NCBI GenBank assembly: GCA_036005065.1
Contig: DASYQW010000130.1
Span: 1 to 47,242, forward strand
Source of the DNA: Candidatus Methylomirabilota bacterium
GTDB taxonomy: Bacteria; Methylomirabilota; Methylomirabilia; Rokubacteriales; DASRDR01
Reading direction: 5' to 3'
DNA: 47,242 bases
Below, in pieces: positions 1-14,013 of this stretch (positions are counted from its first letter, which is position 1; every line of letters begins with the position of its first letter). A model generated the notes under the pieces. That model had not been told where the DNA came from and did not search any database. It saw only the letters and a list, made by a program, of their open reading frames with translations. The position numbers and the translations under genes were made by a program.

Positions 1-729
1 GGCGTTGGCCTCCGGCACGTACACCGCGTCCCCCGCCTCCACCACCACGTTCTGCCGCGGGTCTCCCGTCCGCATCAGCGTGTCCAGGTCCACCGCCACC
101 GGCTGCGGCTCCCCCGCCCGCGGCCGGGCCCGCACCACGTACGCCACCCGGTCCGCGTTCTCCCGAACGCCCTTGGCCTCCGACAGGGCCCCCAGCAGCG
201 TCGTGTAGTTCGTCTTCAGCGCGAAGGATCCCGGTTGCTGCACCGCCCCCATCACCGCGAACTGCCGGCCCCGGTATTCTGTCACCGCCACGTTCACCTT
301 GGGCTGCAGCAGGTATCCCCCCCGCAGCCCGGTCTCCAGCGCCTGCTCCACCTCCTTCACCGACCGCCCCCCGACCGCCACCTCTCCCAGGAAGGGAAAG
401 GTGATCGTCCCCCCCTCGCTCACCCGCAGCGTGCGCGTCAGGTCCTCCTGGGCGTGCACCTGAATCGTGATCTGGTCGCCGGGTGCCAGCTTGTAGTCGT
501 CGGCCGCTTCCGCCGCTGGCGCGGAGAGCGAGACCGCCGGCGGCGCCGGCGCGCCGGGGCCCCGGCCAGATCCCGCCCGCGACGGGCCCGGGCCCGGCCC
601 GGGACTCCCCGCCGCCGGTGTCGCCGGCCCCGCGGGGCTCACGGCCGGGCTCGGCGTCGTGGCGCAGGCGACCGCCGCCATCAGCAGGCCGAGGAGCAGG
701 ACGGGACGCGTCCATCGGATGGATCGCAT
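1..729 (-). CDS. Polysaccharide export (Wza-type) lipoprotein, 3' end cut off by window
   Basis: The frame is open from an ATG at 729 to the window edge (243 codons). The N-terminus is a short basic stretch, a hydrophobic segment and a VAC lipobox-like site at about residues 20-22, so an outer-membrane lipoprotein is likely. A Pro/Ala/Gly-rich linker of about 40 residues follows. Next comes a polysaccharide-export domain starting near YKLAPGDQITIQV and containing FPFLGEVAVGG, then an SLBB-like segment (RQFAVMGAVQQPGSFAL) and a VVVEAGDAVYVPEA motif. Proteins of this family (Wza/GumB type) form the outer-membrane channel for capsule or exopolysaccharide. AAGGGGG lies 7 bases before the ATG. The gene sits directly behind a sigma-54 promoter at 753-768. 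Recognition is by sequence pattern; the sugar exported cannot be told. Confidence 0.88.
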   Translation of the reverse strand, partial: MRSIRWTRPVLLLGLLMAAVACATTPSPAVSPAGPATPAAGSPGPGPGPSRAGSGRGPGAPAPPAVSLSAPAAEAADDYKLAPGDQITIQVHAQEDLTRTLRVSEGGTITFPFLGEVAVGGRSVKEVEQALETGLRGGYLLQPKVNVAVTEYRGRQFAVMGAVQQPGSFALKTNYTTLLGALSEAKGVRENADRVAYVVRARPRAGEPQPVAVDLDTLMRTGDPRQNVVVEAGDAVYVPEANA

Positions 730-752
730 GGGACACCCCCTTGCCTGGGTCG

Positions 753-768
753 AGCAAGACGGGTGCCA
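753..768 (-). promoter_or_regulatory. Sigma-54 (-24/-12) promoter of the polysaccharide-export gene
   Basis: Read on the minus strand the site is TGGCAC, five bases (CCGTC), then TTGCT, a full match to the RpoN consensus TGGCAC-N5-TTGCW. GG and GC are separated by the required 10 bases. The predicted start near 742 gives a leader of about 13 bases that begins with the AAGGGGG ribosome-binding site of the gene starting at 729. rpoN itself is in this window at 12571-14013. An enhancer-binding protein would be needed; none is encoded here and I could not identify its binding site. Confidence 0.82.
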
Positions 769-913
769 TGCCAGGACGCCGGTGACGCCGCTCCCACCGG
801 GCGGCCGCCCCGACGGAATGCACATTTTGCCGCTCGGAGCGCAGAAGGCGGCGGGCCGGCGATGCGGGCGGGTGGACCCGAGCCGCGAGCCGAGCAGCCC
901 TAGGCCGGGATTA

Positions 914-935
914 TTCGCGAGGCATGCCTCTCGAA
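914..935. terminator. 22-bp dyad after the UPF0182 gene, terminator-like
   Basis: GAGGCATGCCTC (919-930) is a perfect palindrome, extended on both sides by TTCG/CGAA with one mismatched pair. It begins 30 bases beyond the stop of the UPF0182 gene on the minus strand. There is no T-run, only GAATAATCC, so it may be a weak terminator or a protein-binding dyad. The rest of 730-964 holds the sigma-54 promoter, a GC-rich stretch and a partial copy (829-841, GCCGCTCGGAGCG) of the repeat described at 45111; I see no gene there. Confidence 0.4.
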
Positions 936-964
936 GCGGCGCGGGTGACGACGGGCTGCGGCGG

Positions 965-3706
965 TCATCGGCCCGGCTGGCCCGGCTGGCTCCGGTCGCG
1001 CAGCGTCCGGAGTGCCTCTTCGAGCCGCTTCTGGGCCTCCCCATAGGCGGTCCAGTCGCCGCGCCGGAGCGACTCCTGGGCGCGCGTCCACGCCTCCCAG
1101 GCCCGCCCGACGACGGCGTCGAGCCCGGCGGCGCCGGGCGGTGTCGGCGGCGCGTCGGGGGCTCGCGCGATCACCGCCGCGGGCCGGCGCCCGAAGATCG
1201 CCTGGAGCGAGGCGTCCAGCGAGTCCTCCATGGCGATCTGGTTCCCGTAGGCGACGAACACCCGCTTGAGCTCGGGGATGGAGCCTTTCTCGGCCCCCAG
1301 GTACATGGGCTCGACGTAGATGAGCGACTCCTCGATGGGAATGGCCAGGAGACTGCCGCGGATCACGGCCGAGCCCCGCTGGTTCCACAACGTGAGCTGC
1401 TGCGAGATCACGGGGTCCTGGTCGATCCGGGCGGCGATCTGCCGCGGCCCGTAGACGAGCCGCTGCTTGGGAAAGAGGAAGGCCGTCAGGCGCCCGTAGT
1501 GCTCGCCGTCCGCCCGCGCGCCCAGCCAGGCGATCATGTTGTCCCGGCGGAGCGGGGTGAAGAGCGTCAGGAGGACGAACTCCTCGCGGGCCTCGCCCGG
1601 CAGCCGCATGATCGTGTAGTAGGGCTCCATGTCGCGCTCGCGCCCGCTCTCCTGGCGGCGCGGGATCGACCACAGGTCTTCCTTGTTGTAAAAGACCCGC
1701 GGGTCCTGCATGTGGTAGGTCGCGTACATGCGGGCCTGAATGGTGAACAGGCCGGCCGGGTAGCGGACGTGGGCGCGGAGGTCGGCCGGCATCTCGCCGA
1801 GCGGTCGGAACAGACCGGGAAACGCCCGGGCATAGGCGCGGACCAGCGGGTCGCGCTCGTCCGCGAGGTAGAAGGTCACCGTTCCGTGGTAGGCGTCCAC
1901 CACGGCCTTCACCGAGTTCCGCACGTAGTTGCCGAAGCCGGTCACCCGCTCCGAATAGGGGAAGCGGTCGGTGGCCGTGTAGGCGTCGACGATCCAGACG
2001 AGGGTCCCGTCGTCACGGATCACCAGGTAGGGGTCGGCGTCGAAGCGCAGGAACGGCGCGATGCGCCGGACGCGCTCGCCGACCTGCCGGTAGTACATCG
2101 CCCGGCTCTCGGGGGTGATCTCGTCGCTCAGCAGGATCCGGTACGACGCGAACCGCAGCGACAGCAGGAGCCGCCGCCAGAAGCTTCCCACCGGCACGCC
2201 CCCCCGGCCCTGGTAGGTGGTGTACACGTTCTCGTCGCCCGCCGGGTAGTCGATCTCCTGCGACCGCGTGCGCACGAAGACGTAGTCGTTGGCGATCTCG
2301 CCGTAATAGATCTCCGGGCGGGTGACGCGCAGCGAGACGGAGGACGCGGGCGGGATGTCCCGGATGAACAGCTCGGGGAGTCCTTCCGAAGTCACGCGGT
2401 TGACCGGCCCCACCACGGCCCCGTAGCCGTGCGTGTACTGGAGGTGCTCGTTGATCCACTGGCGATCCGTGTCGCGCCCCTGGGGGTCCCGGGGCAGGTT
2501 CTGGTAGGAGAGCTCCCGCGCGGAGAGCATGACTTGCCGGTACTCGCGGTCGATCAGGTAGCGGTCGTTGTCCACGTCGACGAAGCGGTAGTAGGTCCGG
2601 ATCTCCTGGAGCTGGGCGAAGGTCGCCAGGGCCGGCCCGTGGTCCCACAGGCGGATGTTCCGCAAGGTCGGCGCGTTCCGGGCCAGGTCGGCCGGCTCGA
2701 GCGATTCCCGGACCGGGAACTCGCGCTCCTCGATCCGGTCCAGCCCGAAGGCCTGTCGGGTGAGCCGGATGTGGTGGGCGATGAACGGGCTCTCGGCCAC
2801 CAGCGCGTTCGGCGCGACCCGCAGGCGCTGCACCAGCGCCGGATAGGCCCAGACCCCGACCAGCCAGCCGAGCGCCAGCACCACCAGCCCCGCGAATACG
2901 GGACGCGCCCCTCGGCGCAGGATCTGGACCAGCGCCGCGATCCCGCACAGCGCGGCCAGCGCCGCCAGGACCGACAGCGCGGGCAGGGTCGCGTGGACGT
3001 CGGTGTACGTCGCTCCGAAGACCGCCCCGCGGTGGGAATAGAGGAGCTCGAACCGGTCGAGGTAGAAGTCGACGGCCTTGGCGAAGAGCAGGAGCGCGGC
3101 CAGCGCCAGGAGGTGCACGCGCGCGCGAGCCGTGATCACCGGGCCGCGGGCGGTCAGAACGAGGACGCGGCCCAGGAAGTAGAGCAATGCGGTGGTCAAG
3201 AGCGTGACGCCGCCGAGCAGGAACACCCAGTCGAGCCCGTAGCGCCACAGAGGCAGGCGAAAGACGTAAAAGCCGATGTCCCGGTTGAAGATGGGGTCCG
3301 CGATGCCGAAGGGCTGGGCGTTGCGGAAGGCCAGGAGCGTCTGCCACTCGCTGCTCGCCGACAGGCCGAAGATCACGGCGAGCGCGACGGTGACGGGCAC
3401 CAGCGCTCGCCGGAGCAGCGGCTCCAGGATGACGCGGCTCGGCAGCCCGAGCGGCTCCTCGAGCTCCCAGAAGACGTCGGGGGGACGCGCGTAGGCGGCC
3501 GCGCGCAGATTCGCTCCCAGGAAGGCGAAGCTCACGAGGCCCACCACCAGGAAGAGCGCCCCCCGGAGGCCCACCACCCCGAGGAACACGCCCTCGTAGC
3601 CCACCTCCTGGAACCAGAGCCAGTCCGTGTAGAACGGTACGGCCTCGAGGAGCAGGAAGAGGGCGACCAGCGCGATCACGAGGAGCGTGCCGCGCGAGGT
3701 CCTCAC
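965..3706 (-). CDS. UPF0182 family integral membrane protein
   Basis: 913 residues from a GTG at 3706. The GTG overlaps the TGA of the upstream glycosyltransferase gene (GTGA) and is preceded by CCTGGAGAG. About seven hydrophobic segments occupy roughly the first 300 residues, for example VIALVALFLLLEAVPF and LFLVVGLVSFAFL. A large soluble domain follows with family signatures such as RYYRQVGERVRRIAPFL-like and NMIAWLGAR segments. The tail is rich in Ala, Arg and Pro. Length and layout match UPF0182 (PF03699), a conserved family without an established function, common in actinobacteria, cyanobacteria and deep-branching diderms. The reading frame can be extended upstream to 4132, but that part only overlaps the glycosyltransferase gene. 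Its position at the end of the metK-ahcY-glycosyltransferase run suggests an envelope role; this is inference. Confidence 0.87.
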   Translation of the reverse strand: MRTSRGTLLVIALVALFLLLEAVPFYTDWLWFQEVGYEGVFLGVVGLRGALFLVVGLVSFAFLGANLRAAAYARPPDVFWELEEPLGLPSRVILEPLLRRALVPVTVALAVIFGLSASSEWQTLLAFRNAQPFGIADPIFNRDIGFYVFRLPLWRYGLDWVFLLGGVTLLTTALLYFLGRVLVLTARGPVITARARVHLLALAALLLFAKAVDFYLDRFELLYSHRGAVFGATYTDVHATLPALSVLAALAALCGIAALVQILRRGARPVFAGLVVLALGWLVGVWAYPALVQRLRVAPNALVAESPFIAHHIRLTRQAFGLDRIEEREFPVRESLEPADLARNAPTLRNIRLWDHGPALATFAQLQEIRTYYRFVDVDNDRYLIDREYRQVMLSARELSYQNLPRDPQGRDTDRQWINEHLQYTHGYGAVVGPVNRVTSEGLPELFIRDIPPASSVSLRVTRPEIYYGEIANDYVFVRTRSQEIDYPAGDENVYTTYQGRGGVPVGSFWRRLLLSLRFASYRILLSDEITPESRAMYYRQVGERVRRIAPFLRFDADPYLVIRDDGTLVWIVDAYTATDRFPYSERVTGFGNYVRNSVKAVVDAYHGTVTFYLADERDPLVRAYARAFPGLFRPLGEMPADLRAHVRYPAGLFTIQARMYATYHMQDPRVFYNKEDLWSIPRRQESGRERDMEPYYTIMRLPGEAREEFVLLTLFTPLRRDNMIAWLGARADGEHYGRLTAFLFPKQRLVYGPRQIAARIDQDPVISQQLTLWNQRGSAVIRGSLLAIPIEESLIYVEPMYLGAEKGSIPELKRVFVAYGNQIAMEDSLDASLQAIFGRRPAAVIARAPDAPPTPPGAAGLDAVVGRAWEAWTRAQESLRRGDWTAYGEAQKRLEEALRTLRDRSQPGQPGR

Positions 3707-4596
3707 GGTCGCTCTCCAGGCGCCGGGATCGCTCGAGCCCGGGACGCGAGCGGGACCTCGGCGCCGGCCGGACGGCTCCCCGGCCCGGCTGGTGATCCCC
3801 CCCGCTCCTCGGCGATCTCGTAGGAGAGGCGCCGCCGCACCATCCACCGCACGGCCCACAGGTCGGCGAGCCCGGCCCACAGACGGGTCCAGTTCCCGTA
3901 CTTGGACCGGCCGGCGCGCCGCGGCCGGTGGCGCACCGGTACCTCGGCCACCCGGAACCCCTCCGCCTGGAGAAGTGCCGGCAGGAAACGATGCATGCCG
4001 CGGTAGAGCGGAAGCCGGGTGACCGCCGTCCGTCGGAAGACCTTCAGCATGCAGCCGGTATCGTGGATGCCGTCGTGGGTCACGCGTCGGCGCACGGCGT
4101 TCGCCACCCGGGATGCCAGGCGCTTCGTCCACGGGTCTCGCCGCTCCACGCGCCAGCCACAGACGGCGTCGTACGGACCCAGGGCGGCCAGGAGTGTCGG
4201 GATGTCGCGGGGGTCGTTCTGGAGGTCGGCGTCCAGGGTCGCCACGAGGTCGCCGCGCGCCGCCCGGAAGCCGGCGGCGAGCGCAGCCGTCTGGCCCGCG
4301 TTTCGGCGGAAGCGGAGGACCCGCACCCGGGGATCGGCCGTGGCCAGGGCGGCCAGGGCCGCGAAGGTCCCGTCGGTGGAGCCGTCGTCGACGAAGATGA
4401 TCTCGAAGGACCGGCCCAACGGCTCCAGGACCTCCACGACCTCGCGGTAGCAGGCCTCGACGTTCGGCTCCTCGTCGTACGCCGGGATGATCACCGACAG
4501 CCCGGGCTCGCCCTCGGCCGCACGCGCCGGCAGTCGCCCGACCGCCCCGGGGGCGAGAGGTGCCGGCCGCGCGCGTCCGTCAGGTGGCTCGCCCAC
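3703..4596 (-). CDS. Family 2 glycosyltransferase (DPM1/ArnC-like)
   Basis: 297 residues. The GT-A fold is clear: LSVIIPAYDEEPNVEACY at about 33-50, EIIFVDDGSTDGT (nucleotide binding) at about 64-76, and the metal-binding DxD in TLDADLQNDP at about 120-129. The motifs resemble polyprenyl-phosphate mannosyl/glucosyl transferases. There are no obvious C-terminal membrane helices, so the protein is probably peripheral. The start is a GTG at 4596 whose G is shared with the TAG stop of the gene before it; no good Shine-Dalgarno is visible, so translation is probably coupled. The upstream neighbour is a GT39-like membrane transferase that would use a lipid-linked sugar. A GT2 making polyprenyl-phosphate sugar next to it is the classic ArnC/ArnT arrangement, but the sugar is unknown. 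Confidence 0.88.
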   Translation of the reverse strand: MGEPPDGRARPAPLAPGAVGRLPARAAEGEPGLSVIIPAYDEEPNVEACYREVVEVLEPLGRSFEIIFVDDGSTDGTFAALAALATADPRVRVLRFRRNAGQTAALAAGFRAARGDLVATLDADLQNDPRDIPTLLAALGPYDAVCGWRVERRDPWTKRLASRVANAVRRRVTHDGIHDTGCMLKVFRRTAVTRLPLYRGMHRFLPALLQAEGFRVAEVPVRHRPRRAGRSKYGNWTRLWAGLADLWAVRWMVRRRLSYEIAEERGGSPAGPGSRPAGAEVPLASRARAIPAPGERP

Positions 4597-12570: not shown

Positions 12571-14013
12571 TCAGGCCCGTTTGCGGGTCGCGAGTCGGCG
12601 CTGGTGGGACGGAAGGATCCCGAGCTCTTCCCGGTACTTGGCGACGGTACGCCGGGCGATCGAGAGCCCGCTCTGCTTGAGGGCGCGGGTGATCTCCTGG
12701 TCCGACAGCGGCTTCTGGGCGTTTTCCTGGGCGACCAGGTCCCGGATCATCTTCTTCACGCTGATCGAGGAGACCATGTCGCCCCGGCCGGTCGCGATGC
12801 CGCTGTGGAAGAAGAACTTGAGCTCGAAGAGTCCTTGAGGAGTCTGGACGTACTTGTTGGTGGTGACCCGGCTGACGGTCGACTCGTGCATGCCGATGTC
12901 CTCGGCCACGTCGCGCAGGGACAGCGGCCGCAGCACCGGCAGGCCGTGGGCCAGGAACTCCTTCTGGAACTTGACGATCGACTCGGTCACCCGGTAGAGG
13001 GTCCGCTGCCGCTGGTGCACGCTCTTGATCAGCCAGATCGCCGAGCGGAGACGATCCTCGACGTAGCGCCGCGCCTCGTCTCCCTGTCCCCGGCCCAGCA
13101 TGCTCCGGTAGTAGGGATTGATGCGGAGGCGCGGGATGCCGTCGTCGTTCAGGACGATGGCGTAGCCGTCCTCGGTCTTGTGGACGTGGACGTCCGGCAC
13201 CACGTACCGGGTGTCAGCCGGCGCGAAGCGCCGCCCGGGCTTGGGCTCGAGGCCGGCGATCTCCTCGACGGCCTCCTGGACTCGATCCGGGTCCCGCCGG
13301 AGCGCCCGCGCGATCTCGGCGTACTTGCACCGCTGGAAGGCCTCGAAGTGCTCTTCCAGGATCTCGATGGCGAGCGGATCCGGCTCGGCCTGCTGGCGCA
13401 GCTGGATCAAGAGACACTCGCGGAGGTCGCGGGCGGCCACCCCGGGGGGGTCGAAGCTCTGGACCAGGATGAGGGCCTTCTCGAAGACGGCCCCCGGCAG
13501 GCTCGTCTTCTCGGCCATCTCCTCGAGTGTCGCCCGCAGGTAGCCGTCCTCGTCGAGGTTCCCGATGATCTCCTCGGCAGCCGCCTGCACGTCCAGCTCG
13601 ACCACCGACAGCCGGAGCTGCTCGTAGAGGTGATCCGCCAGGGACGTGGTCGTCCCGACGAAATTCTCGAACCGGGTCTCTTCGTGCTGCTCTTGCTGGA
13701 CGAGGCTTCGCTCGTCCGGCGGACCGAACATGATCTCCGTGAGGTCGAAGGGCAGGTCCGGCGCCTCGGCGGCCTCGGTGACCGCGGGAGCGTCGGGCGG
13801 GGTCGCCTCGGCCGCCGGGCCCTCGGCCGGCGGCTCGGGCGGCGGCGCCTCCTCCGGTGACTCCTCGAGCATGGGATTCTCCGTCAGCTCTTTCTGGAGC
13901 AGCTCCTGGAGCTCCAGGGTCGAGAGCTGGAGGAGCTGAATGGCCTGCTGGAGCATCGGCGTCATGACGAGCCGCTGGGTCTGACGAAGCGTGAGACGAG
14001 CTTCCATCGCCAC
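12571..14013 (-). CDS. rpoN: RNA polymerase sigma-54 factor
   Basis: 480 residues. Region I is the Gln/Leu-rich N-terminus (LRQTQRLVMTPMLQQAIQLL) that contacts enhancer-binding proteins. An acidic, Pro/Glu-rich region II of about 60 residues follows, then the core-binding domain (FDPPGVAARDLRECL). The DNA-binding part has the helix-turn-helix (LRDVAEDIGMHESTVSR) and the RpoN box ARRTVAKYRE near residue 457. The GTG at 14013 has AGGAG at 8 bases; the in-frame ATG at 14007 is the alternative. A matching -24/-12 promoter is present at 753-768, so the factor has a likely target close by. Confidence 0.97.
   Translation of the reverse strand: MAMEARLTLRQTQRLVMTPMLQQAIQLLQLSTLELQELLQKELTENPMLEESPEEAPPPEPPAEGPAAEATPPDAPAVTEAAEAPDLPFDLTEIMFGPPDERSLVQQEQHEETRFENFVGTTTSLADHLYEQLRLSVVELDVQAAAEEIIGNLDEDGYLRATLEEMAEKTSLPGAVFEKALILVQSFDPPGVAARDLRECLLIQLRQQAEPDPLAIEILEEHFEAFQRCKYAEIARALRRDPDRVQEAVEEIAGLEPKPGRRFAPADTRYVVPDVHVHKTEDGYAIVLNDDGIPRLRINPYYRSMLGRGQGDEARRYVEDRLRSAIWLIKSVHQRQRTLYRVTESIVKFQKEFLAHGLPVLRPLSLRDVAEDIGMHESTVSRVTTNKYVQTPQGLFELKFFFHSGIATGRGDMVSSISVKKMIRDLVAQENAQKPLSDQEITRALKQSGLSIARRTVAKYREELGILPSHQRRLATRKRA

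Follow-up and report, generated by a model that had tools for sequence, protein, structure and literature searches.

That sigma-54 controls genes for exopolysaccharide and other parts of the cell exterior is an established theme (Francke et al. 2011, PMC3162934). The Myxococcus xanthus eps locus encodes an NtrC-like regulator of its own with a receiver-AAA+-HTH architecture, EpsI/Nla24 (PMC4877007), and in PEP-CTERM systems PrsK/PrsR occur together with a sigma-54 cis-element (PMC1569441, PMC9850573), pepA being RpoN-dependent (PMC9850573). A literature search on sigma-54 in Rokubacteria gave no paper. Here we describe a -24/-12 promoter element in front of a polysaccharide-export gene in the window, that is, the whole 47,242-nt contig C130 of a Rokubacteriales genome (G000). 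The locus resembles the theme reviewed in PMC3162934 in having such a promoter on a polysaccharide-export gene and an NtrC/AtoC-type activator beside exopolysaccharide (EPS) genes, but differs from it in that the promoter sits on what appears to be a solitary, duplicated wza. In our view the promoter is most likely real and of an ordinary kind, and belongs to a solitary duplicate of wza instead of an operon head. Such control of the cell exterior by sigma-54 is not new in general; the locus contributes a concrete set of predicted sigma-54 targets in an uncultured order of bacteria and an exopolysaccharide operon with a putative link to its own NtrC-type regulator, and it is an example of a gene, probably solitary, that looked like an operon head because of a contig edge.

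Table 1. Features in and around the promoter region of the window (positions on contig C130)
Feature	Position	Strand	Basis or remark
5' 243 codons of wza-type outer-membrane polysaccharide export gene (Poly_export + SLBB)	1..729	-	family search
Intergenic region upstream of wza, expected place of action of an enhancer-binding protein	730..964	-	no sigma-70-like promoter found
Shine-Dalgarno-like AAGGGGG	736..742	-	read directly
Predicted transcription start (+1), A742	742..742	-	inferred from spacing, 12 nt past C of -12 GC
-24/-12 sigma-54 promoter element TGGCACCCGTCTTGCT	753..768	-	read directly; 15/16 identical to C74 paralogue site
Weak candidate activator site CTGC-N10-GCAA	827..844	.	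not significant by itself
UPF0182 membrane protein gene, upstream neighbour of wza	965..4132	-	family search
rpoN, sigma-54 with AID, core-binding and DNA-binding domains, RpoN box ARRTVAKYRE	12571..14013	-	sole rpoN found in genome

The sequence-only reading had reported TGGCAC-N5-TTGCT with exact spacing before the export gene, and we confirm it on the minus strand (768-753): TGGCACCCGTCTTGCT matches TGGCAC-N5-TTGCW exactly, with GG at -24 and GC at -12, and lies 24 nt upstream of the wza ATG. It had also been called a full consensus, which holds for this pattern but not for the extended sigma-54 consensus, TGGCACG-N4-TTGCW, as the first base of the spacer is C instead of G. With the C of the -12 GC at 754, transcription is predicted to begin at A742, at the claimed distance of 13 bases from the ATG at 729, and the leader between them would be AAGGGGGTGTCCC. 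The start had been placed just before the ribosome-binding site; the Shine-Dalgarno-like sequence begins at the predicted +1 itself, so the leader is very short, and we count this tight arrangement against a sigma-54 reading of the window gene. The gene product has a Poly_export domain (PF02563, 6.7e-22, 77.9 bits with a cut-off of 28) and an SLBB_2 domain (36 bits with a cut-off of 27), as in Wza/OPX proteins, and the exact motif together with these domains supports the assignment of a sigma-54 promoter to a polysaccharide-export gene. The 3' end of this gene most likely lies on contig C406, which would give a protein of 350 aa altogether. As for the sigma factor, no other rpoN was found in the genome, so that the window's rpoN would serve this promoter by elimination, as had been proposed.

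The same genome contains a wza paralogue, on contig C74, which is 85% identical to the window gene. The promoters of the two share 15 of 16 bases while the leaders up to the ATG have diverged and cannot be aligned by eye, and this suggests that the promoter has been under selection; alternatively, the likeness may stem from an independent origin or from a breakpoint just upstream. When the joined genes are compared, fourfold sites differ at 17/41 positions in codons 1-75, at 11/80 in codons 76-210, at 0/22 in codons 211-243 and at 6/57 beyond. Among 60 genomes of the order, orthologues of the window wza were found in this genome and in one distant relative, G012 (contig C95, QHSP01000042.1, a Candidatus Rokuibacteriota MAG), the sole further source, with about 50% identity. 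Upstream of the G012 gene, GGGCATCCCCCTTGCA has the GG and the GC correctly spaced and mismatches the hexamers at two other positions, and the gene heads a wza-wzc-GT2-nucleotidyltransferase cluster syntenic with contig C382. The upstream regions of C74 and G012, not that of the window, have in common CCGGCAACTTTG within a TTGC-N9/10-GCAA palindrome, which as a candidate activator site is only suggestive because the comparison is so small. The window copy is without this conserved element and has just a weak half-site, at 827-844, of which AGCGGCAAAA recurs in reverse orientation in the palindrome upstream of the G012 orthologue. The gap between UPF0182 and wza also contains an imperfect palindrome at 916-933, CGCGAGGCATGCCTCTCG (core GAGGCATGCCTC), some 150 bp upstream of the -24 element; it might serve as an activator site or belong to a terminator of UPF0182. 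A further, distant wza homologue with 36% identity is present at C12:13069-13638 of the same genome.

Could the -24/-12 match be a product of chance or a vestige, with wza being read through from UPF0182 or depending on a different sigma factor? UPF0182 has the same orientation and ends only 235 bp away, and no activator site clearly common to the upstream regions of the window gene and its C74 paralogue was found. However, the exact motif is expected 0.01 times per dinucleotide-shuffled window and occurs 21 times in the whole genome as against once for the reversed pattern, which served as a control; here it stands ahead of a start codon and is nearly identical in the paralogue, and no sigma-70-like promoter was found at 730-964, so that we consider chance or another route of transcription unlikely. 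A different question is whether wza opens a sigma-54-dependent EPS operon that runs off the left edge, as the sequence-only reading had supposed. The last 96 bp of contigs C382 and C406 are the same as the first 96 bp of C130 and C74 (4/4 pairings); this overlap is a repeat inside the two wza paralogues, where the assembly broke. An operon at this place would take the joins C130-C382 and C74-C406, and the C130-C382 overlap is as good as the other pairings, its joined frame stays open and wzc follows directly. We read the UPF0182 neighbourhood at 18 LptF loci of order relatives, with wza detection at E 1e-15. In 10/18 loci (L094, L095, L098, L100-L103, L107, L110, L111) MetK, in most cases with AhcY next, is followed by UPF0182 and then by convergent LptF and ValS, and no wza match at E 1e-15 was found between UPF0182 and LptF in these ten relatives, the 0.8-4.5 kb between the two genes in L094, L110 and L111 being covered by the wza search alone. 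In L097, LptF adjoins a cut-off UPF0182, in L099, L104, L105 and L106 the stretch read shows no UPF0182 next to LptF, and in L096, L108 and L109 the stretch ends too near LptF to show its neighbour. As C130 has the MetK-AhcY-UPF0182 side and C406 the wza 3' end followed by LptF and ValS, C130-C406 is the parsimonious join, and from synteny and parsimony we infer C130-C406 and C74-C382 as the most likely pairs. The opposite pairing would part UPF0182 from LptF-ValS, neighbours in the ten relatives, and would put C74, with its wza and divergent wzy-wzx, beside lptF; moreover, the element shared with the G012 cluster is upstream of the C74 wza, not of the window gene. The supposed operon is thus disfavoured, and we regard it as quite improbable. 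With the C130-C406 join, wza would be a single inserted gene of 350 codons between UPF0182 and lptF: on C406 its end is followed by a perfect hairpin (12 pairs, GC-rich, -28.5 kcal/mol) that lacks a T run, and the next gene is the convergent lptF, not a co-directional EPS gene. The synteny in ten relatives and the contig overlaps therefore make the window wza most likely a solitary inserted duplicate. We are fairly confident that the sigma-54 promoter drives this lone OPX gene, which would have been copied together with its -24/-12 element; the grounds that are read directly from sequence are the promoter match, its enrichment, its conservation in the paralogue, the single rpoN and the GAFTGA loop of the regulator described below.

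The real Wzx/Wzy-type exopolysaccharide operon is most likely C74+C382, headed by the wza paralogue. The EPS gene names used here are family-level assignments. The operon comprises wza, wzc with a tyrosine autokinase domain, GT2, a WecG/TagA-type transferase, STAS proteins and a nucleotidyltransferase that also has a sugar-transferase-like domain, as well as a GAF histidine kinase and, on C382 like the kinase, an NtrC-family response regulator with a receiver, a sigma-54 interaction domain, a Fis-type HTH and a GAFTGA loop. An enhancer-binding response regulator near EPS genes, which the sequence-only reading had anticipated, is thus present together with a kinase, in what is most likely the paralogous operon. 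Opposite the C74 wza, a divergent operon encodes a Wzy_C protein, a receiver protein and a Wzx-type flippase. Between the two (L062 769-971, on C74), exact sigma-54 sites point away from each other at a distance of 187 bp, one before wza and one before the wzy-like gene, with the TTGC-N9-GCAA palindrome between them. This locus resembles the eps locus of M. xanthus in that it encodes an NtrC-type regulator, and proteins of C382 match the models for EpsU and EpsA; it differs in that these matches are under the NCBIfam cut-offs and that the regulator forms a pair with the GAF histidine kinase beside it. Is it then part of a PEP-CTERM/exosortase (XrtA, PrsK/PrsR) system, in which a sigma-54 cis-element is likewise known (PMC1569441)? 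The architecture is partly the same, with a sigma-54 promoter, an upstream candidate activator site and a histidine kinase and NtrC-type regulator among EPS genes. However, no exosortase match was obtained with TIGR02602 or PF09721 in the genome, which is 97.9% complete, and the PrsR model gave nothing above its cut-off genome-wide, the C382 regulator reaching 434 bits with a cut-off of 502.6; the C382 kinase, the one protein on which the PrsK model was run, scored 84.5 with a cut-off of 300. We have rejected the PEP-CTERM reading, which appears highly improbable.

For the solitary wza and the C74+C382 operon we propose the following scheme. The GAF kinase of C382 would phosphorylate the NtrC-type regulator, which would then bind the upstream palindromic sites and remodel the RpoN-RNA polymerase, so that both EPS operons, wza and the divergent wzy-wzx, would be opened. 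Possibly the solitary wza would be opened too, providing an extra export channel while that polysaccharide is made. However, since the upstream element of C74 and G012 is missing at the window copy, its activator may be another of the approximately 20 candidate enhancer-binding proteins of the genome. Perhaps, and we offer this tentatively, the lone wza kept its sigma-54 promoter after moving from the EPS operon and became an independently tuned extra channel, either coupled to the kinase-regulator pair of the operon or rewired to another activator.

A genome-wide search for TGGCAC-N5-TTGCW had been suggested, and its 21 sites include those before the wza paralogue and the wzy-like gene on C74. 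In 59 genomes of the order Rokubacteriales there were 630 exact matches and 139 for the reversed pattern. The sites on C134 and C413 are identical in sequence and lie at contig ends, which leaves 20 distinct sites in the genome, and at least 14 of these have an SD-preceded start codon 17-85 nt downstream; in the seven sites read in relatives, an ATG follows 9-43 nt downstream of each. One of the genome sites precedes a gene (MKKIEAIIKPFKLDEV...) which we take to be PII-like from its sequence, without a family search, PII-type genes being classical sigma-54 targets. The C134 and C413 copies (L012, L021) share their flanks as well as the site, and are probably another assembly break or contig overlap. 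An exact site on C84 (L008, 14491-14506, minus strand) lies 27 nt ahead of the ATG of a presumably Ku-like gene, recognised by eye from its sequence (MAAVRKGIITFGLVSIPV...); we considered Ku as a conserved sigma-54 target and discarded it, as neither of two sites from relatives, picked for the likeness of their spacers, lies before Ku. In two other genomes of the order (L143 in G055 and L144 in G020), related sites stand before a similar gene for a glycine-rich protein (MKSVAGIF...), which suggests that sigma-54 control of this gene is conserved within the order.
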